Shown here in pieces: positions 6,930 through 22,108 of a stretch of DNA of 39,835 nt (the stretch's first letter is position 1; every line of letters begins with the position of its first letter). The stretch is from Candidatus Iainarchaeum sp. (GTDB taxonomy: Archaea > Iainarchaeota > Iainarchaeia > Iainarchaeales > VGJJ01). The notes under the pieces are model-generated. The model was given only the letters and a program-made list of their open reading frames with translations. It was not told the origin of the DNA and ran no database searches. The position numbers and the translations under genes were made by a program. The DNA lies in NCBI GenBank assembly GCA_016867455.1, contig VGJJ01000004.1:1-39835 (forward strand). Direction: 5' to 3'.

Positions 6930-7745
6930 ATGGCACCACTACACGAGCATGAAGAAATCCCGCTCCGTATTACGGCGTACTTTGATTTCATGTGTCCATG
7001 GTCTTACTTAGGAAGGGTGCGCCTCGCGCATGCACTGCAAAAAATAGGCGTGAAAAATTATCGAATAGAATGGGTGCCATTCGAATTATACACTCACAAC
7101 AAGGATCACCGCGTCTCCCGCGAAAAAATAATCGGACACGAACGCTTGAATGAAACCTATCACGAACTCCACTCTCTAGGAATGCGTGAAAACATTTTGA
7201 TATATCCCCCCAAATACGAAGCGAGCTCCAAACGCGCACTCACAGGATACTTGTACGCCCTCTCCCACGGATGCGGGGAAAAATACGTCGATGAACTTTT
7301 TCGAATCGCTTTCGAACACACGATGGACATTTCCTCATTTGCTGTATTGCGCCGAGCCGCACACACGCTTCACTTGAACACGGAAGAATTCTTACAATTC
7401 ATCCAAGACGAAAAAAACCACGACAAAATAGAAGAATACACGCGCGTGGCCAAACTAAATGGCGTGAGAGGCGTTCCCGCATATTACATTAATCACTTCC
7501 CCATCACGGGCGCGTTGAGCGTGGGAGAATTTGAACACATCATTCACACCGCCGCGCGAAAAACAACCCCCGCTTTCGTGCTTCCCGAGAAAAAAACTAT
7601 TCATCTGCCCGCAGCACGAAAAAAAAAGAAAAAAAATTCTACACTCAAAACAATCCAAAAAATACTTCACACACGCAAACCAGCGCCCAAAACCAAACAC
7701 CCCAAAAAAGGAAAAAAACCCGCTAAACGAGCTAAAAAACGATAA
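6930..7745 (+). CDS. DsbA-family (FrnE-like) thiol oxidoreductase with Lys-rich C-terminal tail
   Basis: TAYFDFMCPWSYLGRVRL, cis-Pro region GVRGVPAYYIN; tail KKKKKNS...KPAKRAKKR. Confidence 0.8.
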   Translation: MAPLHEHEEIPLRITAYFDFMCPWSYLGRVRLAHALQKIGVKNYRIEWVPFELYTHNKDHRVSREKIIGHERLNETYHELHSLGMRENILIYPPKYEASSKRALTGYLYALSHGCGEKYVDELFRIAFEHTMDISSFAVLRRAAHTLHLNTEEFLQFIQDEKNHDKIEEYTRVAKLNGVRGVPAYYINHFPITGALSVGEFEHIIHTAARKTTPAFVLPEKKTIHLPAARKKKKKNSTLKTIQKILHTRKPAPKTKHPKKGKKPAKRAKKR

Positions 7746-7798: not shown

Positions 7799-9193
7799 AT
7801 GCCCACGATCAACAAGCCAAAAAACGCTAAACCGGCCAAAAAGACGAGCCAAAAACTCTCATCATTAACTAAAAAAAACACCCCAAAAACCATCCCGCGT
7901 GAACGTGAAACCATATTAGAAAAAAAACTCGCAACGAGAATCCCTTCTCCAATGGCAACAGTGCCTGCGGCGCACACTCCAGCACGAAATCAATCCCTCA
8001 CGAATACTCATCCTGCGTCAACACCGGCCCGTGCTCCAGACAATCAACCAGTGCCTCATTCTGCCCACTCAACTGCGAAACGTTTCGCGGACATGCACTT
8101 ACCCTCGTCCGTGATGAAAGGATTAGATGAACTCGGGTACGTGCAACCCACGCCCATTCAAGAAAAAACCATCCCACTCATTTTGAGCGGAAAAAACGTG
8201 TTAGGACAAGCCAAAACAGGCACCGGAAAAACAGCCGCGTTCGGAATACCCATTTTCATGCACGTGAATCCTGCGTTGAAAAAACCCCAAGCCATCATCG
8301 TCGTCCCTACCCGAGAATTAGCCTTACAAGTCCGAGACGAATTAGAAAACATTGGAAAATACACGCAAACACGAATCACCGCCCTCTTCGGGGGAGCGAG
8401 TATGAATACGCAGGCCGCCGCGCTGCACTCCGGAGCGGGAATAATCGTGGGAACACCCGGGCGAATGATGGATTTCATGCGACGAGGAACACTTGATTTG
8501 TCACAAGTAAACATGGCCGTATTAGACGAAGCCGACAAAATGCTGGACATGGGATTCAAGGATGATATCGAAACCATTTTTTCACAACTCCCGCACGAAA
8601 AACAAGCATTATTATTCTCGGCGACCATGCCGCCCGAAATCAAATCATTGGCCAAAAAATATTTGCGCGGATATGAAGAAATCAACCTGAGCGAAGACAC
8701 ATTAACAGTGGAAGGAGTCACTCAATACTACTTGAACGTAGACCCACGTGAACGCGTACACATGTTGCTCGGACTCATTCAACACTTTCACATTACGAGG
8801 GGAATTATTTTCTGTTCCACGAAACGAACCGTGGACTGGTTATCGAGACAACTATACCACTATGGGGTGCGCGCCGCCGCCATTCATGGGGATTTGTCCC
8901 AAGTCCAACGCCAACGCAGCTTGTCAGAATTTGATGAAGGAAAATACTCCCTCTTACTTGCCACCAATATTGCGGCACGAGGAATCCACATTGAAAACAT
9001 TACTCACGTGATTAATTTTGATTTTCCCGAAGAAAATGAAACGTATGTTCACCGCATCGGACGAACCGCACGCAAGGGAACAAAAGGGGTTGCCATTACG
9101 TTTGTAACAAACATGGGCCAAATCCGCCAGCTGCAAGACTTGGAAGCCGTAATGAATGCCAAAGTGCACGAACTCCGAGTAAAGAACGTTTAA
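7799..9193 (+). CDS. DEAD-box RNA helicase with low-complexity basic N-terminal extension
   Basis: AKTGTGKTAAFGIP, PTRELALQ, VLDEADKMLDMGF, SATMP, ATNIAARGIH, HRIGRTAR motifs. Confidence 0.95.
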   Translation: MPTINKPKNAKPAKKTSQKLSSLTKKNTPKTIPRERETILEKKLATRIPSPMATVPAAHTPARNQSLTNTHPASTPARAPDNQPVPHSAHSTAKRFADMHLPSSVMKGLDELGYVQPTPIQEKTIPLILSGKNVLGQAKTGTGKTAAFGIPIFMHVNPALKKPQAIIVVPTRELALQVRDELENIGKYTQTRITALFGGASMNTQAAALHSGAGIIVGTPGRMMDFMRRGTLDLSQVNMAVLDEADKMLDMGFKDDIETIFSQLPHEKQALLFSATMPPEIKSLAKKYLRGYEEINLSEDTLTVEGVTQYYLNVDPRERVHMLLGLIQHFHITRGIIFCSTKRTVDWLSRQLYHYGVRAAAIHGDLSQVQRQRSLSEFDEGKYSLLLATNIAARGIHIENITHVINFDFPEENETYVHRIGRTARKGTKGVAITFVTNMGQIRQLQDLEAVMNAKVHELRVKNV

Positions 9194-9232
9194 CGCATAT
9201 TTAACGCCCTTTTGGTCGAAGTTACCGCCACG

Positions 9233-9240
9233 CTTTAAAT
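9233..9240 (+). promoter_or_regulatory. TATA box for leaderless geranylgeranyl reductase transcript
   Basis: CTTTAAAT about 26-33 nt upstream of ATG 9266. Confidence 0.5.
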
Positions 9241-9265
9241 CTCTTTTCCCAGGCGTATTTCTCTT

Positions 9266-10528
9266 ATGACTGCCGAAAACATGCCATCTACCCAAGCCAA
9301 GAACACCTATGACGTTATCGTCGTGGGAGGGGGCCCGGGTGGAAACTCAACCGCGATGTTTTTGCACAAGAAAGGATACCGCGTTTTATTATTGGATAAG
9401 GCCAAGTATCCCCGCGACAAAATATGCGGAGACGCCATCTCCGGAAAAAGCGTGGGAATGCTCAAAGAACTCGGCATCGAACACGAAATGGAAAAACTAG
9501 ATACCGCAAAAGTATACGGACTCGTCTTCTCTTCTCCGGAAGGAAAAATGCTCGAAATCCCTTTTCCTGTAAAAGATGGGGAAGGACACACGAAAGCACG
9601 AGGATACGTTTGCCGACGCATCGTGTTTGACAATTTCTTATTTTCACACACCAAAAAAATGGTGGATGCCAAAGAAGAATTCCAAGTAACCGATTTGATT
9701 TGGGACAACGATACCGTGGTTGGAGTCAAAGGATTTGACATGAACACGAAGAAAGAATACGAATACAAGGCAAAATTTGTCATTGGAGCAGACGGTGCCA
9801 CTTCACTCGTGGCCAACAAAGTGGGTGCGGAAAAAGTTCCCGACGAACACTTGTGCATGGCGACGCGCGTATACTACGAAGGAATATCTGGAATGACGCC
9901 CAACATTGAAATTCACTTCATCGACTCCGTCATGCCCGGATATTTTTGGATTTTCCCATTAGAAAATGGAAAAGCCAACGTAGGATTGGGAATGGTTTCT
10001 ACGGACCGGCAAAAGAAAGGCGTCAATTTGGTGGCAGAAACCGAACGCGTAATTGTAGAACACCCCTTATTCAAAGAACGATTCAAGAATGCCAAAAAAC
10101 TAACGGACGTAAAAGGATGGACTCTTCCGTTTGGAAGCTTCAAACGAAAACTACACGGAAAAGGATGGTTTTTGGTAGGAGACGCCGCCTCGCTTGTTGA
10201 CCCATTCTCCGGAGAAGGAGTGGGAAACGCGATGACGAGTGGAAAATACGTCTCGGAAATAATCGATGAAGCATTCAAAACCAACAACTTCATGCAGGAA
10301 CACCTGTCACAATACGACACACGCTTATGGAAAGAAATCGGCCCCGAATTGCATACGAGTTACATGCTCCAAAAAATGGGCCGACACAAATGGTTGCTGA
10401 ACATGGTCATCGGGAAAGCATCCCGAAGCAAAGAAGTACGAGACACGATTAGCGGAATGCTGGTGAACGAAGAAGCACGAAAAAGCTTCATTTCACCCAT
10501 GTTCTACGTGAAATTACTCCTCGCGTAA
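9266..10528 (+). CDS. Geranylgeranyl reductase family FAD-dependent oxidoreductase
   Basis: YDVIVVGGGPGGNSTAMFLHKKGYRVLLLDK, CGDAISG, GWFLVGDAASLVDPFSGEGVGNAM. Confidence 0.85.
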   Translation: MTAENMPSTQAKNTYDVIVVGGGPGGNSTAMFLHKKGYRVLLLDKAKYPRDKICGDAISGKSVGMLKELGIEHEMEKLDTAKVYGLVFSSPEGKMLEIPFPVKDGEGHTKARGYVCRRIVFDNFLFSHTKKMVDAKEEFQVTDLIWDNDTVVGVKGFDMNTKKEYEYKAKFVIGADGATSLVANKVGAEKVPDEHLCMATRVYYEGISGMTPNIEIHFIDSVMPGYFWIFPLENGKANVGLGMVSTDRQKKGVNLVAETERVIVEHPLFKERFKNAKKLTDVKGWTLPFGSFKRKLHGKGWFLVGDAASLVDPFSGEGVGNAMTSGKYVSEIIDEAFKTNNFMQEHLSQYDTRLWKEIGPELHTSYMLQKMGRHKWLLNMVIGKASRSKEVRDTISGMLVNEEARKSFISPMFYVKLLLA

Positions 10529-10534
10529 ACACTC

Positions 10535-10558
10535 AACAGGGACTCTTCGTCCCCTGTT
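10535..10558 (+). terminator. Hairpin after geranylgeranyl reductase gene
   Basis: AACAGGGAC tcttc GTCCC(c)TGTT, one bulge. Confidence 0.5.
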
Positions 10559-10596
10559 CCAGAGGGTTTTAATTCCAACTCCGGGTGAACAAAGGT

Positions 10597-11322
10597 ATGC
10601 CTGCTCCTCAAAACGTGGACGTGTCGGTAGTTGTCTGCACGCTCAATGAGGAAAAGAACATCGTTTCGTGTTTGAACGCGCTGCGGGAACAAGAATTTAG
10701 TGGAAAATACGAGATCATCGTCGCGGATGGACATTCCGAAGACAACACAGTAGCATTGGCCAAACCACTCGCCGACAAGATAGTGTTAGAAAAAAAACGA
10801 AGCATTGCTAACGAAAGACAGGCCGGTGCCCGTGTTGCACGAGGAAAAATAATTGCTTTCACGGATGCTGACTCGCGCGCTCCTAAGGATTGGGTCAAAA
10901 AAATACACGAAACATTTGAAAAAAACCCCGACATTGCACTCATTTATGGTCCTGTATTCTATTCGGATGTCACGGAAAACGAGCAGTGGTTATCCACCTT
11001 CTTCATGCCCAAATTCTTACGAATAATGAGCATGCTGCGAATGCACAATCCTATTGGAAGCAACTTAGCCATCCGACGAGAAGTATTTGAAAAAATTGGC
11101 GGGTTTGACACGAGTTACATTACGTGCGAGGATTTAGACTTAGGAAAACGAGCCGCACAACACGGGAAACTACACTATCACTCGCACTTGAAACACTACG
11201 TTTCCGCACGCCGCGTACGAAAGTGGGGCTACCTCAAGTACGTGGGATTCCACTTATACAACGGCGTACGGTATCATTTCACGGGAAAAGCTTCCCGAAA
11301 ATACGAGGACGTGCGGGAGTAA
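10597..11322 (+). CDS. Glycosyltransferase family 2
   Basis: VDVSVVVCTLNEEKNIVSCLNAL, FTDADSRAPKDWV, GGFDTSYITCEDLDLGKRA. Confidence 0.88.
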   Translation: MPAPQNVDVSVVVCTLNEEKNIVSCLNALREQEFSGKYEIIVADGHSEDNTVALAKPLADKIVLEKKRSIANERQAGARVARGKIIAFTDADSRAPKDWVKKIHETFEKNPDIALIYGPVFYSDVTENEQWLSTFFMPKFLRIMSMLRMHNPIGSNLAIRREVFEKIGGFDTSYITCEDLDLGKRAAQHGKLHYHSHLKHYVSARRVRKWGYLKYVGFHLYNGVRYHFTGKASRKYEDVRE

Positions 11323-11358
11323 TTCTCCATTATAAAGCCCGAAAGGGATGAAACCATC

Positions 11359-12510
11359 ATGCGCATCGCCATTTTCACGGATTCATTCTGGCCGCAAGTC
11401 AACGGAGTAACCACGAGCATCCTCAACATGGTGGACACCTTATCCCAGGAAGGGCATCACTTTCTCATTTTCGCCCCCAAACCCAAAAAATTCCCAGGAG
11501 ATGCTCCACTGCTCAAAAACACTCAAATCATTTGGCTGCCCGCGGAACCACTCCCAACATACACCGATTATCTCATGGCCTATCTTGTTCCACCCTCGGC
11601 GAAAAAAATATTCAAGGAATTCCACGCGGATTTAGTGCACGTCCACACGCCCTTTTTTGTGGCCCAAAAAGGAATCAAATACGCACAACGGGCACACATC
11701 CCCGTGATTGGAACATTTCATACTCTGGTATCGGAGTTCTTGGACTATGTTCCTATTCCAAAAATCAAACACAACCCCATCATGAAACAATTAACCTGGG
11801 TGTACACGCAACATGTTTATGGAAAATGCGACGTGATAACAACTCCCACGAAAGTATTAGCGGATGAATTACACGAACACGGATTCAAAAACGTGCACGT
11901 GCTCACGAATGCCATCGATTATGAGTTATTCTCTCACGGAAAAAATGCCGAATGGGGAAAAAAGATTAATTTGTGTTACTTTGGACGCGTATCATTCGAA
12001 AAACGCATTGATGTGGCGCTCGAAGCATTATTTTTGCTTCGCAAAAAATACACTAGTGTGGAGATGAACATTATTGGGTCGGGCCCCGCTGAAAAATCAC
12101 TCCAAACACTCTCACGCGAATTAGGATTAGAAAAACACGTTCACTTTTTAGGCGTCAAACGAGGAAAAGAACTCGCACGCGCCGTAAAACAAAACCATCT
12201 CCTCATTGCTCCCTCCCCCATGGAGACGCAAGGATTGTACGTGTTAGAAGCCATGGCTGCCGGCTTGTGTGTCGTTGGCGCGAATGCGCGCGCCATTCCC
12301 GCAGCATTAGGAAAAAACGAGCGCGGATTATTGTTTGAAGCCAACAATGTAGAAGATTGTGCCCAAAAAATAGAAAAAGTCATGAAAAACGCTCAACGTA
12401 GAAAAAAACTCGCCACGAATGCAAAAAAATGGGTGAAACACTACAGCAAAAAGTCTATTGCACGCGAGTGGATGGCACTCTACACGAAAACACGAGCCCA
12501 TCACCCTTAA
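11359..12510 (+). CDS. Glycosyltransferase family 4 (diacylglycerol glucosyltransferase-like)
   Basis: MRIAIFTDSFWPQVNGVTTSILNMVDTL, LVHVHTPFF, CYFGRVSFEKRIDVALEAL, APSPMETQGLYVLEAMAAG. Confidence 0.88.
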   Translation: MRIAIFTDSFWPQVNGVTTSILNMVDTLSQEGHHFLIFAPKPKKFPGDAPLLKNTQIIWLPAEPLPTYTDYLMAYLVPPSAKKIFKEFHADLVHVHTPFFVAQKGIKYAQRAHIPVIGTFHTLVSEFLDYVPIPKIKHNPIMKQLTWVYTQHVYGKCDVITTPTKVLADELHEHGFKNVHVLTNAIDYELFSHGKNAEWGKKINLCYFGRVSFEKRIDVALEALFLLRKKYTSVEMNIIGSGPAEKSLQTLSRELGLEKHVHFLGVKRGKELARAVKQNHLLIAPSPMETQGLYVLEAMAAGLCVVGANARAIPAALGKNERGLLFEANNVEDCAQKIEKVMKNAQRRKKLATNAKKWVKHYSKKSIAREWMALYTKTRAHHP

Positions 12511-12524
12511 ATTGGCCCCAATTT
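12506..12524. promoter_or_regulatory. TATA-like element overlapped by inverted repeat upstream of frdA
   Basis: cttAAATTGG CC CCAATTT; TATA-like cttaaatt ~22-29 nt upstream of ATG 12535. Confidence 0.4.
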
Positions 12525-12534
12525 TGGTTGAAGT

Positions 12535-14250
12535 ATGTCCACGCTCACGCATGACATTCTCATTATTGGGGCAGGCCTCGCCGGACAGCGCGCGGCGATT
12601 GAAGCACGCAAACAAAACATGGACGTGGGAATTATTTCCAAGGTCCACCCCGTACGTTCGCACTCTGTGGCGGCCGCGGGAGGAATTAATGCAGCCATTG
12701 GAGAAGGGGATGACTGGAAAGCCCATTTCCGCGACACCGTGTATGGAAGTGACTTTCTCGCCGACCAAGACGCGGTCAAAATACTCTGCCAAGACGCCCC
12801 CTCGCGTGTAAAAGAAATGGAATCCTGGGGCGTAGTCTTCTCACGAACCAACAAAGGAGAAATCGCCCAACGACCATTTGGAGGACAATCCGTTGCGCGC
12901 ACGTGTTACGCGTCCGACCGCACCGGACACATGCTCCTGCACACCACGTATGATCAGCTCATGAAAACACGCCCGACGATTTACTCGGAACACTATGCAT
13001 TATCCCTCATCACGGAAAACAACCACTGCGCGGGAGCAGTAGTATGGGACATGGAAAAAGGAAAAATCATTAGTATGCGTGCCAACGCCGTGCTGCTCGC
13101 CACAGGAGGATATGGGAGAGCATTCTCCGTGACCACGAATGCGCGCATCTGCACCGGAGACGGACTCTCCCTCGCGTACAACGCGGGATTGCCACTAGAG
13201 GACATGGAATTCGTCCAATTTCACCCATCCGGAATGTATGGAAAAGGATTCTTAGTCAGTGAAGCCTCGCGCGGAGAAGGAGCATACCTGCTCAACTCCA
13301 AGAATGAACGATTCATGAAAAAATATGCCCCCCAAAAAATGGAACTCGCTTCACGCGATATTATCGCGCGCGCAATCATGAGTGAAATCGCCCACGGAAG
13401 GGGATGCGGTTCCCAAAAAGACCACGTGTATTTAGACGTGCGACACTTGGGGGAGAAAAAAATCATTGAACGCATTCCAGAAATACGAAAAACCGTGCAC
13501 GAACAACTCGGCATGGATTGCGTGAAAGAACTCATCCCCATTATTCCAACCGCACATTACTCCATGGGGGGCGTTCCCACGAATGTGCACACGCAAGTCA
13601 TTGTGGACGCGCACAATAATCCTTTTCCAGGATTATATGCCGCGGGAGAAGTGTCCTGCTTATCCGTACATGGAGCTAATCGATTGGGAGGAAACTCTCT
13701 ACTAGAAACCATTGTATTTGGACGCATCGCCGGACAAAAAATGGCCGAGCATGTGCGCGAAAACACACGCAACAAGGGAAGTGTTGATTTTTCCCACCAC
13801 GAAGAAAAGGCCCGTGCTCGCGTGGACGAACTATTAACAAGCGTCAAAGGAACCAAGAGCCACGTTTTGAGAACAAAACTCCAACAACTCATGATGGAAA
13901 ACGTGGGCGTATACCGAAGCAAAACAGGATTAACCAGCGCCCAACGCGCATGGAAAAAACTCTCTACGGAAAGCAAAGCCATTCACGTGGAAGACAAGTC
14001 CCCTACGTTTAACATGGACCTCATTCACGCGTTAGAATGTCAAAACCTCGTAACATTCTCTCAAAGCATAATCGCCAGTGCCCTCGCACGAACCGAAACA
14101 CGTGGGAGCCACGCACGCACAGACTATCCCGCTAGAAATGATCAAAAATGGTTGAAACACTCCATGGCCGTGCAACACGGAGAAAACGTCCAATTATTCT
14201 ACAAGCCGGTAATCATTGCAGGATATGCTCCGGAAGCGAGGCACTACTAG
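12535..14250 (+). CDS. frdA/sdhA: Fumarate reductase/succinate dehydrogenase flavoprotein subunit
   Basis: HSVAAAGGINAAIGEGDDWKAHFRDTVYGSDFLADQDAV, RPFGGQSVARTCYASDRTGH, QFHPSGMYGKGFLVSEASRGEGAYLLN, HYSMGGVPTN, HGANRLGGNSLLETIVFGRIAG. Confidence 0.93.
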   Translation: MSTLTHDILIIGAGLAGQRAAIEARKQNMDVGIISKVHPVRSHSVAAAGGINAAIGEGDDWKAHFRDTVYGSDFLADQDAVKILCQDAPSRVKEMESWGVVFSRTNKGEIAQRPFGGQSVARTCYASDRTGHMLLHTTYDQLMKTRPTIYSEHYALSLITENNHCAGAVVWDMEKGKIISMRANAVLLATGGYGRAFSVTTNARICTGDGLSLAYNAGLPLEDMEFVQFHPSGMYGKGFLVSEASRGEGAYLLNSKNERFMKKYAPQKMELASRDIIARAIMSEIAHGRGCGSQKDHVYLDVRHLGEKKIIERIPEIRKTVHEQLGMDCVKELIPIIPTAHYSMGGVPTNVHTQVIVDAHNNPFPGLYAAGEVSCLSVHGANRLGGNSLLETIVFGRIAGQKMAEHVRENTRNKGSVDFSHHEEKARARVDELLTSVKGTKSHVLRTKLQQLMMENVGVYRSKTGLTSAQRAWKKLSTESKAIHVEDKSPTFNMDLIHALECQNLVTFSQSIIASALARTETRGSHARTDYPARNDQKWLKHSMAVQHGENVQLFYKPVIIAGYAPEARHY

Positions 14251-14251
14251 T

Positions 14252-15082
14252 ATGGCTGCACGCCAAAAAAAACGTAAACAAACGCGCAAAAACACGCGAC
14301 CGCGTTCACGCGAAACGAAAAAACGCCAACGCGCCCCCGTGAAAAAAACACGTGCAACGTTAAACATTGAAAAATCCATTCTTCACGTGAGAGTAGCGCG
14401 ATACAATCCTCAAATGGATTTTCACGCGCGCACGCACGAGTATCACGTGACGCTCAACAAAGGAGAAAGTGTACTTGATTTACTCACGCGAATTCACGAG
14501 ACGCAGGATGGGAGCTTAACCTTCCGTGCAAGCTGCGGATACGGAGGATGCGGTGCATGCGGAGTCAAAGTGAATGGAAAAACGGTACTCGGTTGCGTGA
14601 CGCAAGTCAGCGACCTCATGACCGAAAACCAAACCATACACATTGAACCATTGCATGAGAACGTCATCAAAGATTTAGTGGTGGACGAAAAGCCCTTTTT
14701 TGATGAATTAGAAAAAATAAGCCCATGGATAACCCCCCGCATAAATGATGTGAAACGAAACCACAAAATGGGAATCAATGATGTCCAAAAACTAGGAAAT
14801 GCCCACCAATGCATTCTCTGCGGAATATGCAACGCCCACGCCGAGAGTCAAAAAACAGGAGAATTAGGTCCCGCCGCCATGGTGAAAGCCTATCGATACC
14901 GCATGGATGTCCGCGACGCCAACACGCAGCGCGACGCTGTTATTAGTAAACAATTCCCCGTTCATTACTCACTAGAAAAGGCCAACGCCTGCCCCCGAAG
15001 CATTTTCCCGGGGGATAAAATAAAAGAGATGAGAGAATTATCTCATAAACAAAAACAAACTTTTCGCGGTGTGAAAAAATAA
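14252..15082 (+). CDS. frdB/sdhB: Fumarate reductase/succinate dehydrogenase iron-sulfur subunit, lacking [3Fe-4S] ligands
   Basis: [2Fe-2S] motif CGYGGCGACGVKVNGKTVLGC; CILCGICNAHAE and ANACPRSIFP; GPAAMVKAYRYRMDVRD; basic N-terminal extension. Confidence 0.9.
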   Translation: MAARQKKRKQTRKNTRPRSRETKKRQRAPVKKTRATLNIEKSILHVRVARYNPQMDFHARTHEYHVTLNKGESVLDLLTRIHETQDGSLTFRASCGYGGCGACGVKVNGKTVLGCVTQVSDLMTENQTIHIEPLHENVIKDLVVDEKPFFDELEKISPWITPRINDVKRNHKMGINDVQKLGNAHQCILCGICNAHAESQKTGELGPAAMVKAYRYRMDVRDANTQRDAVISKQFPVHYSLEKANACPRSIFPGDKIKEMRELSHKQKQTFRGVKK

Positions 15083-16563
15083 TGAAAAAAATACGCAAAC
15101 ATTATCGACTCGAGCAAGACGCCCTCGGAACCAAACGCGTTCCCAATGATGCGTACACGGGAATATTTTATTCCCGCGCAAAAGAAAACTTTTCACTATC
15201 AACAAGACGATTTCCTCAGGAATTTTTCCACCAATTAGCTATTATCAAACGCGTCTCGGCCGAAGAACACGTGAAATTGAAACAACTCGATGAAGAAGTA
15301 GGAAAAGCCATTGCACGCGCAACTAGGGAAGTAGAAAAAGGAACATTTGACGAGTGGTTCGACATTGATGTATACGAAGCAGGGGCAGGAACACCCCTCA
15401 ACATGACCATGAATGAGGTTATTTCTAACCGCGCACTCGAATTATTGCACGAACGCAAAGGAAAATACGCACGAATACATCCAAATAATCACGTCAACAT
15501 GGGACAGTCCACCAATGATGTAATTCCCACCGCACTGCGGATCACCACCTTATTATTTTCACGAGAACTTGAAAACGAACTAGAAAAAACCATCCACGAA
15601 ACACTAAAACTAAGTAAACGTTATTCCACTTTTGCAAAAACCGGACGCACGCACGTACAAGCAGCTGTTCCCGTGACATTTGGACAAGAATTGAGCGTGT
15701 ACGCCCATTCGTTACGTGAACGATTGGAAACCATCCGCGAGGCGAAAAACCATTTACTCACGATTCCACTCGGGGGAACAGCGGTAGGGACGGGCATCAC
15801 CACGACCCCCCATTACGCGCGCGCGGTCGTGCAACGATTAGCGCGCGAAACACGACTCCCTTTACGCGAGGCGCCTAATAAAATGCTCTTAACGAGCCAC
15901 ATGACGGATTTTCAACATTATTCCAATGCACTATCGGAGCTAGCATCGGATGTGCAACTATGGATGAACGATTGGGTACTCTTGGGATCGGACCCTTACG
16001 CGGGGTTGGGGGAAATCCACCTACTTGAAGTGGAACCGGGAAGCAGCATCATGCCTGGAAAAATTAATCCAAGTATTTTAGAAGCACTCAAAATGATCAC
16101 GTTACAAGTCCAAGGCAATCACGAGACCATCCGTCTGAGTTGCGAGTCCACGCAACTCGAACTTAATGTCATGACTCCCGTGATGGGAAGCAATTTGTTC
16201 GAATCCATTCAACTATTGACACGTGGAATAACCATGTTCCGCGAAAAATGTCTCGTACACGTTCGGGCAACTCCTCGTATGAGCGAATTATTACAAAAAA
16301 GCACATCCGTGGCAACGGCACTCAACCCATATGTGGGGTATGATGTGGTTGCATTCCTCGTGAAAAAATCACTCGCTACGAATACGTTGTTCTCCCAACT
16401 CGTGATAAATGAGGGATTGCTCCTCCCTGCCGAAGCCAATGTTTTACTGCATCCAGCATATCTAACAAAACCCCGAAAAGTAGATGCTGCTTTGCGCGCG
16501 GCCATCCGTTCACGCACAACGTATCAAAAAATTCGCGAGCATGTGCAAAAATATTCCCGATAA
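15082..16563 (+). CDS. aspA: Aspartase/fumarase superfamily lyase, probably aspartate ammonia-lyase
   Basis: RLEQDALGTKRVPNDAYTGI, AGAGTPLNMTMNEV, HVNMGQSTNDVIPT, GSSIMPGKINPSILEA, QLELNVMTPVMGSNLFESIQLL (aspartase-like rather than FumC-like). Confidence 0.78.
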   Translation: MKKIRKHYRLEQDALGTKRVPNDAYTGIFYSRAKENFSLSTRRFPQEFFHQLAIIKRVSAEEHVKLKQLDEEVGKAIARATREVEKGTFDEWFDIDVYEAGAGTPLNMTMNEVISNRALELLHERKGKYARIHPNNHVNMGQSTNDVIPTALRITTLLFSRELENELEKTIHETLKLSKRYSTFAKTGRTHVQAAVPVTFGQELSVYAHSLRERLETIREAKNHLLTIPLGGTAVGTGITTTPHYARAVVQRLARETRLPLREAPNKMLLTSHMTDFQHYSNALSELASDVQLWMNDWVLLGSDPYAGLGEIHLLEVEPGSSIMPGKINPSILEALKMITLQVQGNHETIRLSCESTQLELNVMTPVMGSNLFESIQLLTRGITMFREKCLVHVRATPRMSELLQKSTSVATALNPYVGYDVVAFLVKKSLATNTLFSQLVINEGLLLPAEANVLLHPAYLTKPRKVDAALRAAIRSRTTYQKIREHVQKYSR

Positions 16564-16600
16564 TCAGCGATCTTAAAAAGAAAAGAAACCGTTTCCACGC

Positions 16601-17029
16601 ATGGCTCACCGATATTTCACACTAACTGAAGCGGAAGCACTATTGCCTAAAGTAAAACTCCACATGGACAAACTAATGAATCTTCACGATGAATTATCCG
16701 CACTCTCAGGAGTAAAATTACACGCGGAAGAACTCGATTGGAAAACACACTTACTTGCTATCAACATCAACAAACGATATCATGAACTATCATTCAAATA
16801 TTTCGCCGAACTAGAAGCGCTCACCCATTTAGGATGCTACGTGAAGGACGTAGGACAAGGGCTCGTTGATTTCTATTCTAAACTCGACCAAAAAGACGTG
16901 CTACTCTGTTGGCAGTACGATGAACCCACTATCTTGTATTATCATGACGAAAGCACGGGAAAGAGCGGGAGAATCCCCATTCACGTGTTAAAAGAAAAGC
17001 TCGCGGCCCAAACGAAGACGCTGCTCTAA
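16601..17029 (+). CDS. DUF2203 family protein
   Basis: YFTLTEAEALLPKVK ... GCYVKDVGQGLVDFYSKLDQKDVLLCWQYDEPTILYYHDESTGKSGRIPI. Confidence 0.8.
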   Translation: MAHRYFTLTEAEALLPKVKLHMDKLMNLHDELSALSGVKLHAEELDWKTHLLAININKRYHELSFKYFAELEALTHLGCYVKDVGQGLVDFYSKLDQKDVLLCWQYDEPTILYYHDESTGKSGRIPIHVLKEKLAAQTKTLL

Positions 17030-17055
17030 TAAACACAACACGCTTTCTTTTTCTG

Positions 17056-17700
17056 ATGACTGGATCCGTTCACGATTACGTGGAAAAATATTCGCTGGGG
17101 GTTATATTACGAGATAACACGCTCAGCGAGTACAACACATTTTTGAAAAATTTGGGCGAGCATACCTCGCTCGAAAAAATTGCAGCCGAATACGTGAAAC
17201 GAAAAGGTTCATGCCGCATTTTAGATATTGGTTGTGGAAACGGACAAGCGCTGCACGAACTCAAACAACATGTATCAACACTTGTACATGCGATTGGAAT
17301 TGACCTCCTTCCATTGCACGACGCAAGAGTACTTGATGAATTTATTCAAGGAAACGTGCATGACGTTCCATTGCCCAGCGAGTGTGATATTATAGTTAGT
17401 TTTCGTGCCCTTCACGAAATAGGCTCGCTCGAACAACTCCTTCCGCGTGTAACAAATGCATTAGGAAAGGGCGGCCGTGCGTATTTGTGGATACGCTTTC
17501 GAAAAATAGTGGAAGGAAAAATTGTTTTTGAAGGAGAAATGAACGAGCACGAGGAAAAATACCTCCAAACAATGGCTTCACAACGTGAATTAGGCAATTG
17601 TCGCGTGTTAGTGGAATCGGTTCCCTTGCCCATTCCAGGTCAAGCACACCATAAACCCGCGTATGCGGCGGGATACATTATCGTGATGCTCCGGCAATAA
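17056..17700 (+). CDS. Class I SAM-dependent methyltransferase
   Basis: CRILDIGCGNGQALHEL motif I, IVSFRALHEIG, GGRAYLWIR. Confidence 0.82.
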   Translation: MTGSVHDYVEKYSLGVILRDNTLSEYNTFLKNLGEHTSLEKIAAEYVKRKGSCRILDIGCGNGQALHELKQHVSTLVHAIGIDLLPLHDARVLDEFIQGNVHDVPLPSECDIIVSFRALHEIGSLEQLLPRVTNALGKGGRAYLWIRFRKIVEGKIVFEGEMNEHEEKYLQTMASQRELGNCRVLVESVPLPIPGQAHHKPAYAAGYIIVMLRQ

Positions 17701-17727
17701 TTCCATTTTTTTTCGCTCGCGCGTTTG

Positions 17728-17734
17728 TTTATAT
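17728..17734 (+). promoter_or_regulatory. TATA box for superoxide dismutase gene
   Basis: TTTATAT about 50 nt upstream of ATG with GGAG RBS. Confidence 0.5.
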
Positions 17735-17784
17735 CCATTTTGATTTACTATCGTTACTATTCGTTATGAAAAGGAGCTGAAACC

Positions 17785-18396
17785 ATGACTGACGCTAAAC
17801 CACTAACCTACAAGACTCTCAACGGCCTGTCCGAAAAACAACTCGCCGAACACCACGACGTGCTGTATGCAGGATACGTGAAGAAAACGGATGAAATTCG
17901 CGAAAAACTCAAAACGGTTGATTTGACGAAAGCCAATGGAACATATTCTGATTTGAGAGAACTCAAACTCGAAGAAGGATTTGCGGTGAATGGTGTACGT
18001 TTGCACGAAGGATATTTTGCCGCGTTGGGAGGAAACGGTGGAAAACCGCAAGGGGACTTATTGAAAATGATTGAACACGACTTCGGATCATATGAGAAAT
18101 GGGAAGCCGAATTCAAAGCATTGGGTTTGTGTGCCCGAGGATGGGTCGTGCTCGCATTTGACTGGGAAGACATGAAATTACACAACTACATTTGTGATGT
18201 GCACAACCACGGAGGAATATGGTCCTGCTCTCCCGTTCTCATACTCGATGTGTACGAGCACGCGTACTTTTTGGATTATGGAACCAAACGCAAGGACTAC
18301 ATTGATGTGTTCATGAAGAACGTGAACTGGAAGAACCCGGAAACATTTGTACAGAATATGCGCCTCATGGAAGGAAGAAAGGCCGCAGGACACTAA
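17785..18396 (+). CDS. sod: Fe/Mn superoxide dismutase
   Basis: LAEHHDVLYAGYVKK; PVLILDVYEHAYFLDYGTKRKDYIDVFMKNVNW metal-ligand signature DxxEHAYxLDY. Confidence 0.92.
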   Translation: MTDAKPLTYKTLNGLSEKQLAEHHDVLYAGYVKKTDEIREKLKTVDLTKANGTYSDLRELKLEEGFAVNGVRLHEGYFAALGGNGGKPQGDLLKMIEHDFGSYEKWEAEFKALGLCARGWVVLAFDWEDMKLHNYICDVHNHGGIWSCSPVLILDVYEHAYFLDYGTKRKDYIDVFMKNVNWKNPETFVQNMRLMEGRKAAGH

Positions 18397-18435
18397 TCCT
18401 ACCCCCCTTTCCCGGGTGCCTTTTAATTTCTTTTT

Positions 18436-19635
18436 ATGGCCGATGATACTATGACGCTGGATACGCAAAACCCGTATGATATAGCCATTATTGGCGCCGG
18501 CCCCGCCGGGGGAAGCGCAGCCATCCATGCATCCAAAATGGGTCTCAAAACCATCGTTTTAGAAGAACACGCCAGTGTGGGAGACCCCGTGCACTGCGGA
18601 GAATGTTTGAGCGAAGTCGCTGAAACCCGCATCAACATGAAATTTCCACGCGAAGTCATCGCGCGACACGTGAAAGGAGTCAATGTCATTTTCCCGGACT
18701 CACACAAAGTAAAACTAACGGAAGCCGGATACGTTTTAGAAAAACACGCATTCGAAAAATGGTTGTCCAACGAGGCCCAAAACGCGGGAGCGGAATTATC
18801 ACTCTCTACACGCGTAACGAGTCTCGCACGTGAAAATGAACAATGGAATATTGAAACATCCCAAGGAAAAATTTCGGCACGCATGGTAATAGACGCATCC
18901 GGCGCCGCAGGAGTGGCCAACCGCATGCTCAACATGAATACGCGTTTTAGTGTCACGACGGGAATACAATACGAACTCTTGGATATTCCCCAAGAAGAAT
19001 ACTTGGATTTTTACTTGTGGCCAAGGCTCGCTCCCCACGGATACTTGTGGATGATTCCCAAAAATGATGGACGCGCGAACGTGGGACTGGTAACCCATGA
19101 TATTACGAAAGCCAAAACATACTTGGATCAATTCGTAAAAGAACTCGGTTGGGAATCCAAGAAAAAAATCAAAACATTTGGGGGACCCATTCCCTCGTCA
19201 GGGCCGGTGCAAAATACGGTGGGAGAAGGAATTATTTTAGTAGGAGACGCTGCCGGGTTTACTTCGCCATTATTCGAAGGAGGAACCCAACTCAGTCTCG
19301 TGAGCGGAAGGATGGCGGCAGAAGTAGCAAAGGACGCGTTCACCCAAAACAAATTCGACAAACCATTCTTGTCGCAATACGAAAAAAAATGGCGCGCCGA
19401 ATTCCCATCGTATGATAAAATAATCAAAGGAAAAAATGTCATTTATAATTTCACGGAAGACGAACTCAATCGCATTGGCCACTTGATGCCGGGAGAATTA
19501 TCTAATTTATCCGCAGTAGATAAAGCCAAAGTCGGTTTCAACGTGCTATCCCACAACTATGACTTGTACAAGAAAGGCGTTGTGGATGCATTCTTAGCAT
19601 TCGGATACTCTCGAGCAGCCCATTATGGCTGGTAG
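18436..19635 (+). CDS. Geranylgeranyl reductase family oxidoreductase (second paralog)
   Basis: YDIAIIGAGPAGGSAAIHASKMGLKTIVLEEHASVGDPVHCGECLSE; GIILVGDAAGFTSPLFEGGTQLSLVSGRMAAE. Confidence 0.87.
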   Translation: MADDTMTLDTQNPYDIAIIGAGPAGGSAAIHASKMGLKTIVLEEHASVGDPVHCGECLSEVAETRINMKFPREVIARHVKGVNVIFPDSHKVKLTEAGYVLEKHAFEKWLSNEAQNAGAELSLSTRVTSLARENEQWNIETSQGKISARMVIDASGAAGVANRMLNMNTRFSVTTGIQYELLDIPQEEYLDFYLWPRLAPHGYLWMIPKNDGRANVGLVTHDITKAKTYLDQFVKELGWESKKKIKTFGGPIPSSGPVQNTVGEGIILVGDAAGFTSPLFEGGTQLSLVSGRMAAEVAKDAFTQNKFDKPFLSQYEKKWRAEFPSYDKIIKGKNVIYNFTEDELNRIGHLMPGELSNLSAVDKAKVGFNVLSHNYDLYKKGVVDAFLAFGYSRAAHYGW

Positions 19636-19667
19636 CATTTTATTAATTCTGAGAACAAGAATCCTAT

Positions 19668-20537
19668 ATGAGTGTTTTGCACGTCGTCGATTATTCTCAT
19701 TCTGAAAAAATGTGCCGCAAACACGCCACCAGTTTCTCACTCGCCGCCGAATACCTTCCCGAACGCGAACGATTAGCCGCCTATGCCACGTATGGTTTTT
19801 GCCGCGTGACCGACCAAATCATTGATGGAAATGATTCTGTTCCGGAAAAGAAAAAACGATTAGATGAATGGAAAAATAATCTCACTCAGACCTGGAATCA
19901 TGGAACATCGTCCGACCCCATTTTGCATGCGTTTATACAAACGTGCCAACAATACGACATCCCTCCCGAATGGGGATTCCGACTCATTGAGGGATTGAAA
20001 AAAGACTTAGAAAAAAACACGTATGACAATTTTGATGAATTGTATGAGTATTGCTTCTCCGCCGCCGCCATCCCTGGACTGCTCATGGCATATGTTTTGC
20101 GCGCTCCTCATTCAGCACTTGAACATGCGATTGAATTAGGCATTGCGATGCAACTCACTAACATTCTGCGTGACGTCAAAGAAGACTTGGATGCAGGAAG
20201 AGTGTATTTGCCTCAAGATGAGATGAAAAAATTTAATTACACGCGTGAACAACTGGCTCGCCATGAAAAAAATGATTCTTTTTCTCAAATGATGGCATTC
20301 AACATCGCGCGCGCAAGAGATTATTACACCAAATCCGATGAAGGAATATCCCATCTGCCTGAAGATGCACGGTTAGGCATGCGTTTGTGCGCCGTATTCT
20401 ACCGCGAAATACTCTCCGAAATAGAAAAACGAGAATATGATGTTTTCACACAACGGGTATACGTATCCGATGAACGAAAAAAAGAACTGTTAATGAAAGA
20501 AAAAGACCTCCTCACAACGAGGATTAAAACAAAATAG
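19668..20537 (+). CDS. crtB: Phytoene synthase
   Basis: HATSFSLAAEYLPERERLAAYATYGFCRVTDQIID and NILRDVKEDLDAGRVYLPQDEM (two DxxxD motifs). Confidence 0.93.
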   Translation: MSVLHVVDYSHSEKMCRKHATSFSLAAEYLPERERLAAYATYGFCRVTDQIIDGNDSVPEKKKRLDEWKNNLTQTWNHGTSSDPILHAFIQTCQQYDIPPEWGFRLIEGLKKDLEKNTYDNFDELYEYCFSAAAIPGLLMAYVLRAPHSALEHAIELGIAMQLTNILRDVKEDLDAGRVYLPQDEMKKFNYTREQLARHEKNDSFSQMMAFNIARARDYYTKSDEGISHLPEDARLGMRLCAVFYREILSEIEKREYDVFTQRVYVSDERKKELLMKEKDLLTTRIKTK

Positions 20538-20554
20538 GGTGCACACTATATACT

Positions 20555-22108
20555 ATGCCTCGCCCCCGAAAAAATGACACCACTTCATCCGCGAAAAAAT
20601 CCCCTTCTCCGGACATACTAATCGTGGGAGCGGGATTAGGAGGGCTTTCCCTCGCGTGCCGATTAGCGAAAAACGGGTTGCGCGTGGAAATATACGAAAA
20701 AAACCCTTTTCCGGGAGGAAGGGCTGCACAAAAGAAAGTAAAGGGATACACGATTGACTTGGGTCCCACGTTTCTCCTCATGCCCGGAGAATTCGAAGAA
20801 CTATTTGCTTATTGCGGAAAAAAAATGAGCGACGTGCTCCCAATCGATTTACTATTGCCGAGTTACCGTTTGCACTATTGGGACGCTCAACACATGGATG
20901 TCAGCTCGAATCTCCCCCACATGCTCGCCGAAATAGCACGAGTATCGCCGCGCGAAACATCGGGATTTTTACGCTACCTCGAGCACGAATACCATGTGTA
21001 TGAGACCGTGTACCAGAACTTTATTGCCCACTCTCCCACGTCTCTCATTGATATTCTACTTTCGGGAAAAGCATTTTCATTTCTGCACGCGGACGGTTTT
21101 CATTCGATGTGGGACCACATGGAAAACTTTTTCACGAATCCTAAACTCAAACTTGCTTTCAGTTTCCAATCCATGTACTTGGGACAAAGCCCCCTGCTCA
21201 CGCCCGCGACCTACAGCATCGTGCCCTATGTGGAATTAGCCCAAGGAGTATGGTACCCACGCAAGGGGATTTATTCCATTGTCACCGAAATAGAAAAACT
21301 CGCACGCGAATTAGGAGTAATAATCCATTATGGAAAAAAAGTACGCGAAATAGTCATTGAAAATAATGCCGCGGTGGGGATACGATTGGAAAATGATGAA
21401 ATAATTCGATCCGCCACCATTGTTTCCGATGTGGATTTACCTGCCACGTACGCAAAACTCATTAATGCTCAACATCGGAAAAAATATTCAGACGCAAAAC
21501 TAATGAAACTCGAATACACGTGTTCGGCGTTCATGCTCTACCTGGGAGTGGACCAAAAATATGAACAATTATTACACCACAACGTGTTCTTCTGCGAAAA
21601 CTATTTGCAAAACTTCCACGAATTATTCGAACAAAAAGTTCTACCAACCAACCCAAGCATTTACGTCAATGTTCCCTCGCTCACAAATCCCAAACTCGCC
21701 CCCAAAGGCAAACACTTACTCTATGTATTAGTCCCCGTCCCCTCGAATGATCCCAAAAACGCGCAACATATTGATTGGGATGCGGAAAAAAACGCGTTCG
21801 CGGACAAAATCATTGAACAATTAGAGAAAAATGGCCTCACGGATTTGAAAAAACACATCTGCATGAAAGAAATACTCACTCCCAACGAGTGGGAAGCACT
21901 CGGCGGTTTACATCACGGAGCCACGTTTGGACTCTCTCCTACTTTCTTCCAAAGCAGCGTGTTTCGACCCCAACAAAAAAGCGAAGAGTTCAAGAATTTG
22001 TATTTTGTGGGTTCCAGCACTCACCCAGGAGGGGGAATGCCCATGGTGCTCATTTCCGCACGCACGTGCGCGGAGAAAATACTTTCCTTATTCCCGCGAG
22101 AAAAATGA
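20555..22108 (+). CDS. crtI: Phytoene desaturase
   Basis: ILIVGAGLGGLSLACRLAKNGLRVEIYEKNPFPGGRA; YFVGSSTHPGGGMPMVLISARTCAEKIL. Confidence 0.93.
   Translation: MPRPRKNDTTSSAKKSPSPDILIVGAGLGGLSLACRLAKNGLRVEIYEKNPFPGGRAAQKKVKGYTIDLGPTFLLMPGEFEELFAYCGKKMSDVLPIDLLLPSYRLHYWDAQHMDVSSNLPHMLAEIARVSPRETSGFLRYLEHEYHVYETVYQNFIAHSPTSLIDILLSGKAFSFLHADGFHSMWDHMENFFTNPKLKLAFSFQSMYLGQSPLLTPATYSIVPYVELAQGVWYPRKGIYSIVTEIEKLARELGVIIHYGKKVREIVIENNAAVGIRLENDEIIRSATIVSDVDLPATYAKLINAQHRKKYSDAKLMKLEYTCSAFMLYLGVDQKYEQLLHHNVFFCENYLQNFHELFEQKVLPTNPSIYVNVPSLTNPKLAPKGKHLLYVLVPVPSNDPKNAQHIDWDAEKNAFADKIIEQLEKNGLTDLKKHICMKEILTPNEWEALGGLHHGATFGLSPTFFQSSVFRPQQKSEEFKNLYFVGSSTHPGGGMPMVLISARTCAEKILSLFPREK

Follow-up and report, generated by a model that had tools for sequence, protein, structure and literature searches.

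A predicted soluble fumarate reductase without the [3Fe-4S] ligands of complex II, encoded together with a probable fumarase in an Iainarchaeota genome

Can the flavoprotein and iron–sulfur subunits of complex II work as a fumarate reductase in the cytosol, and which enzyme would supply them with fumarate? This question is raised by a three-gene operon of Candidatus Iainarchaeum sp. (Diapherotrites/Iainarchaeota), located in contig VGJJ01000004.1 of assembly GCA_016867455.1. We analyzed positions 1 to 39,835 of this contig, hereafter called the window, which is contig C4 of the archaeon's own genome (G000: 876 kb, 62 contigs, 94% complete). A preliminary description of the window, made from the sequence alone, had proposed a soluble module producing fumarate from aspartate and reducing it with a non-quinone donor. 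The operon comprises the following genes:

12535..14250, plus strand: FrdA/SdhA-type flavoprotein of 571 amino acids (aa); TIGR01812, 741 bits (cut-off 567); catalytic residues intact.
14252..15082, plus strand: FrdB/SdhB-type iron–sulfur subunit of 276 aa without [3Fe-4S] ligands; TIGR00384, 165 bits (cut-off 88); Fer2_3.
15082..16563, plus strand: aspartase/fumarase-superfamily lyase of 493 aa, a probable fumarase; PF00206, PF10415; active-site blocks intact.

The genes are packed exactly as described earlier: one nucleotide separates the FrdA stop (14250) from the FrdB ATG (14252), and in TAATG at 15080–15084 the FrdB TAA overlaps the lyase ATG. On balance, we favour the reading that the product is a cytosolic fumarate reductase that descends from complex II and works without quinone, encoded together with a fumarate-supplying lyase.

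In canonical complex II, the [3Fe-4S] cluster is the centre passing electrons between the complex and quinone. The cluster positions of FrdB, assigned by alignment to SdhB, were as follows:

14534..14596, plus strand: [2Fe-2S] cysteines C95, C100, C103 and C115.
14810..14830, plus strand: [4Fe-4S] cysteines C187, C190 and C193 (CILCGIC).
14990..14992, plus strand: fourth [4Fe-4S] cysteine, C247.
14840..14842, plus strand: first [3Fe-4S] ligand lost, Ala197 for E. coli SdhB C159.
14960..14962, plus strand: second [3Fe-4S] ligand lost, Val237 for E. coli SdhB C206.
14978..14980, plus strand: third [3Fe-4S] ligand lost, Lys243 for E. coli SdhB C212.

Relatives of FrdB were found in 6 of 87 genomes of the phylum. 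The family of the window includes G000, G072, and two genomes of the window's genus, G073 and G074; all four of their FrdB proteins lacked the three [3Fe-4S] cysteines and retained the other eight cluster cysteines. All three cysteines were kept in every one of the 79 relatives outside this family, in a comparison set consisting of the best 80 of 280 matches. Since most of the outside relatives were collected by patterns of the [2Fe-2S] domain, the set is not biased toward keeping the third cluster. Thus, the loss of the cluster, already noted in the preliminary description, is a lineage trait, neither chance nor error (4/4 within the family, 0/79 elsewhere). The AlphaFold model of FrdB (predicted local distance difference test, pLDDT, of 83) matched SdhB/FrdB chains, with 1nek_B as the best match (E 1.7e-17); according to this model, the protein still has the complex II SdhB/FrdB fold.

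A link of FrdAB to quinone could persist via an unrecognized or distant anchor, with electrons exiting directly at the [4Fe-4S] cluster. The retained fold of the modeled FrdB is in keeping with such a link, and small anchors diverge fast; yet the three ligands are gone in the entire family, and no transmembrane ORF (open reading frame) was found in the operon, nor any gene resembling an anchor next to FrdAB in the syntenic regions examined. In agreement with the earlier claim that no SdhC/SdhD-like gene lies nearby, the region 9000–20600 had no plausible membrane anchor: it contained no plus-strand ORF of at least 60 aa with a hydrophobic segment of 19 aa, and its two minus-strand ORFs with such segments were antisense shadows. 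The Sdh_cyt anchor (PF01127) had no match in the own genome or in the family of the window (8 of 14 controls were positive), in a search that covered the PF01127 family and not the FrdC, FrdD and CCG-type (SdhE/F) anchors, none of which was adjacent to FrdAB. Absences in the own genome refer to selected families searched in an incomplete genome. The 49-kDa subunit of complex I was not found there, and the single UbiA-family protein scored best with GGGP geranylgeranyltransferase, i.e., it is of the lipid type. Among the enzymes of the tricarboxylic acid (TCA) cycle, gltA, icd, sucCD and mdh were also not found in the own genome, while the same query was positive in G071. A query with E. coli cydA, cyoB, nuo and ndh gave zero matches in five genomes, but it lacked a positive control and shows nothing. 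We regard a remaining quinone link as improbable. FrdAB is very probably soluble and independent of quinone, and in this part the non-quinone fumarate reductase of the preliminary description was upheld by the lost ligands and by the genome searches for anchor, quinone and TCA cycle genes.

The substrate side of FrdA is well preserved. The putative flavin adenine dinucleotide (FAD) site is:

12661..12663, plus strand: His43 of FrdA, the counterpart of E. coli SdhA His45 in the alignment and predicted to bind FAD covalently.

By alignment, the FAD-binding His and the equivalents of SdhA F119, H242, E255, R286, H354 and R399 were all present in FrdA of the window and of G072, and both had Ala at the position of SdhA Q50. 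The reading of FrdA as L-aspartate oxidase (NadB) of NAD biosynthesis, for which homology and 391 bits with TIGR00551 speak, was rejected as very unlikely: this score is below the cut-off of 453, while the SdhA/FrdA cut-off was exceeded; E. coli NadB has Ser where FrdA has the FAD-binding His; and FrdA is paired with FrdB. In the absence of quinone or another high-potential acceptor, fumarate reduction would be expected rather than succinate oxidation, an argument resting on established redox potentials, and FrdAB likely runs in the fumarate-reducing direction.

Two flavoproteins of the geranylgeranyl-reductase family (9266–10528 and 18436–19635) flank the FrdAB cluster. G072 and G074 share this arrangement; in G071, one gene of the family occurs near the lyase–FrdAB locus. 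FrdAB may accordingly be viewed as a repurposed flavoprotein redox module acting not mainly on fumarate and possibly tied to the surrounding isoprenoid-lipid genes, with the lyase as a separate housekeeping enzyme. FrdA of G074, encoded by an intact ORF (L009:8997–10736), is in line with this view: the equivalents of R399, R258, F119 and T254 are replaced by Gly, Cys, Leu and Pro, respectively, although FrdB of the same operon retains all eight cluster cysteines. Neither the lyase nor a hydrogenase was detected in the G074 genome. Judging by its residues, FrdA of G074 appears to be a natural case of repurposing or decay. The persistence of FrdAB without the lyase in G073 and G074 also fits this explanation. 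However, synteny by itself does not show function, the window and G072 retain every dicarboxylate-site residue that was checked, and in both of them the lyase is cotranscribed or nearby; we consider a repurposed module unlikely.

The source of fumarate depends on the identity of the lyase. Its SS-loop GSSIMPGKIN, which matches the superfamily motif GSSxxPxKxN (PMC13411527), and the other active-site blocks are intact. The aspartase-type segments named in the preliminary description, QLELNVMTPVMG and DALGTKRVPNDAYTGI, are indeed present, but they are not diagnostic of aspartase: the equivalog models of FumC and AspA gave tied scores of 393 and 392 bits, both below their cut-offs (665 and 681, respectively). 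If the lyase were an aspartase, aspartate would be deaminated to fumarate and reduced by FrdAB with a soluble donor, i.e., the operon would be an electron sink of aspartate fermentation. The best solved relative of the lyase is Bacillus AspB (1j3u), and GAGT and STN residues are aspartase-like, within a mixed result of the only four columns diagnostic for AspA and FumC. The lyase also scored 476 bits with the "aspartate ammonia-lyase" model NF008909, compared with 393 for FumC; however, this model does not discriminate between the two enzymes and was rejected as an aspartase marker, since E. coli FumC scores 545 bits with it, above the cut-off.

In a tree of eight Diapherotrites lyases with references for AspA and FumC, seven of each, the Diapherotrites proteins formed a group of their own (support 91/89; 97/93 for the seven-member set without G041), placed outside both the AspA clade (support 100/99) and the FumC clade. 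The grouping with AspA expected from the preliminary description was thus not obtained, nor was the grouping with FumC that it had named as a refutation, and the phylogeny does not decide the substrate. The lyase therefore shares with AspA/AspB and FumC the fold motifs of the superfamily and the intact SS-loop, but differs from AspA and FumC in its separate clade and in scores below both equivalog cut-offs.

The gene neighbourhood speaks for malate. In G072 the gene order is FrdA–FrdB–malic enzyme–lyase, and malic enzyme adjoins the lyase in G063 and G017 as well; these three genomes belong to three different families. In G071 the lyase lies beside FrdAB, gltA, icd, sucCD and mdh are present, and this lyase is the sole fumarase candidate. 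Class I fumarase was found in neither the own genome nor G071. This lyase type was present in 8 of 83 genomes of the phylum and class I fumarase in 7 of 83 with zero overlap, a pattern that is suggestive but too sparse to count. The malic-enzyme neighbours and the TCA context of G071 lead us to prefer fumarase over aspartase: from its sequence and context, the lyase is probably a fumarase. The aspartate-to-fumarate step of the preliminary description is not supported, and the aspartase reading, although possible, appears doubtful. A related locus was observed in G002 (contig C30, L114), where an FrdA-like gene with no FrdB beside it has a lyase of this clade nearby, as well as ORFs that by eye were named SucC/SucD-like and citrate-synthase-like; this is possibly another soluble FrdA arrangement.

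For the preferred reading, a cytosolic fumarate reductase with its own fumarase, the following scheme can be proposed. Electrons would enter at the [4Fe-4S] or [2Fe-2S] cluster of FrdB from a soluble donor of low potential, which could be ferredoxin, a similar carrier or a flavoprotein bringing electrons from NAD(P)H; they would then pass via FAD to fumarate, with succinate as the electron sink. The lyase would form fumarate from malate, either imported or produced via the archaeon's own malic enzyme. One part of malate would be converted by malic enzyme to pyruvate, CO2 and NAD(P)H, and the other by the lyase and FrdAB to fumarate and succinate; both branches together would make up a redox-balanced malate dismutation.

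Regarding the donor, POR was rejected as a source of reduced ferredoxin, since POR_N was not found in the own genome. A two-subunit [NiFe]-hydrogenase was encoded on contig C2 of the own genome (L156:1881–10528) together with HypA, HypD, HypE, HypF, a maturation protease and a DASS-family transporter. Its nearest solved relatives were alpha subunits of cytosolic hydrogenase/sulfhydrogenase; the small subunit has only 177 aa, and a neighbouring subunit for binding NAD(P) or F420 was not recognized, nor was an Hdr partner. A minimal hydrogenase beside a DASS-family anion transporter was also observed in G073 (contig C49, L158). If such a hydrogenase fed the two-cluster, anchorless FrdAB via a cytosolic carrier, a fully cytosolic, quinone-free pathway from H2 to fumarate would result, which seems to us a long shot. 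The hydrogenase was rejected as a dedicated partner of FrdAB, since a homologue of its large subunit occurs in 25 of 83 genomes of the phylum, mostly without FrdB.

Several points weigh against the proposed scheme. The own genome is 94% complete and split into 62 contigs, so absences there are not proof, and the anchor search was confined to PF01127. No electron donor of FrdAB was identified. The lyase of the window sits on a long branch (1.31) in addition to its aspartase-like residues, and the malic enzyme of the own genome is encoded on contig C26, not adjacent to the lyase, a point that also speaks for aspartase. The lyase was not detected in G073 and G074 of the same genus, where FrdAB is present, so it is not an obligate partner; and, without the substrate-site arginines in FrdA of G074, at least one member of the family may do something else.

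The operon can be compared with several known systems. It shares with complex II (SdhABCD, FrdABCD) homologous FrdA and FrdB, the FAD-binding His, the dicarboxylate site and the [2Fe-2S] and [4Fe-4S] clusters, but it has no [3Fe-4S] ligands, no anchor gene was found, and presumably it does not react with quinone. Among cytosolic fumarate reductases of archaea that have two parts, TfrAB of methanogens is the nearest: its parts resemble FrdA and FrdB, and the NCBIfam models of TfrA and TfrB matched FrdA and FrdB. Unlike TfrB, FrdB of the window ends after the SdhB-like domain (the match covers positions 3–222 of the 488 of the model, far below the cut-off), and neither the C-terminal CCG (HdrB-like) domain nor the thiol-coenzyme module is present. 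A review of 2023 (PMC10238741) contrasts membrane complex II classes with homologues that are fully soluble, among them flavocytochrome c, Osm1 of yeast and L-aspartate oxidase. Flavocytochrome c of Shewanella, Osm1 and NadB are, like the predicted reductase of the window, soluble and have no quinone half-reaction (PMC10238741), but they are SdhA-type proteins without FrdB, while the window keeps the FrdA–FrdB pair. A 2021 survey of DPANN archaea, in the passages considered, gives percentages of complex II for Micrarchaeota and Parvarchaeota only (PMC8407392). We recognized no soluble FrdAB without [3Fe-4S] and no two-cluster FrdB in the open literature searched, which is not proof of novelty.

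Other features of the region were observed as well. FrdB begins with a basic tail:

14252..14376, plus strand: N-terminal Lys/Arg-rich tail of FrdB, about 41 aa (from sequence; low pLDDT in residues 1–40).

The start codon of FrdB is not proven, and a shorter form starting with GTG at codon 30 is possible. Lys/Arg-rich terminal tails were also seen in two further proteins, one of them DEAD-box helicase-like (7799–9193; the other at 6930–7745), and are perhaps a general feature of the lineage. Genes of superoxide-dismutase-like, geranylgeranyl reductase, phytoene-synthase-like and phytoene-desaturase-like proteins (names assigned by eye except for the reductase) lie in a row at 17785–22108, which suggests carotenoid synthesis in the archaeon. 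The gene order of the window was also found in JAGVNS010000090.1, titled Thaumarchaeota archaeon DeMMO3_24; it matches a contig of the window's genus, and the title is probably wrong.

The operon suggests that an enzyme of the respiratory chain, complex II, has become an electron sink free of the membrane. The coordinated loss of the [3Fe-4S] ligands with no identifiable anchor makes this family a natural experiment on two questions: at which cluster a soluble donor delivers its electrons, and how complex II can give up its place in the membrane. For the poorly understood DPANN archaea, it would offer a concrete fermentation route, from malate or aspartate to succinate.

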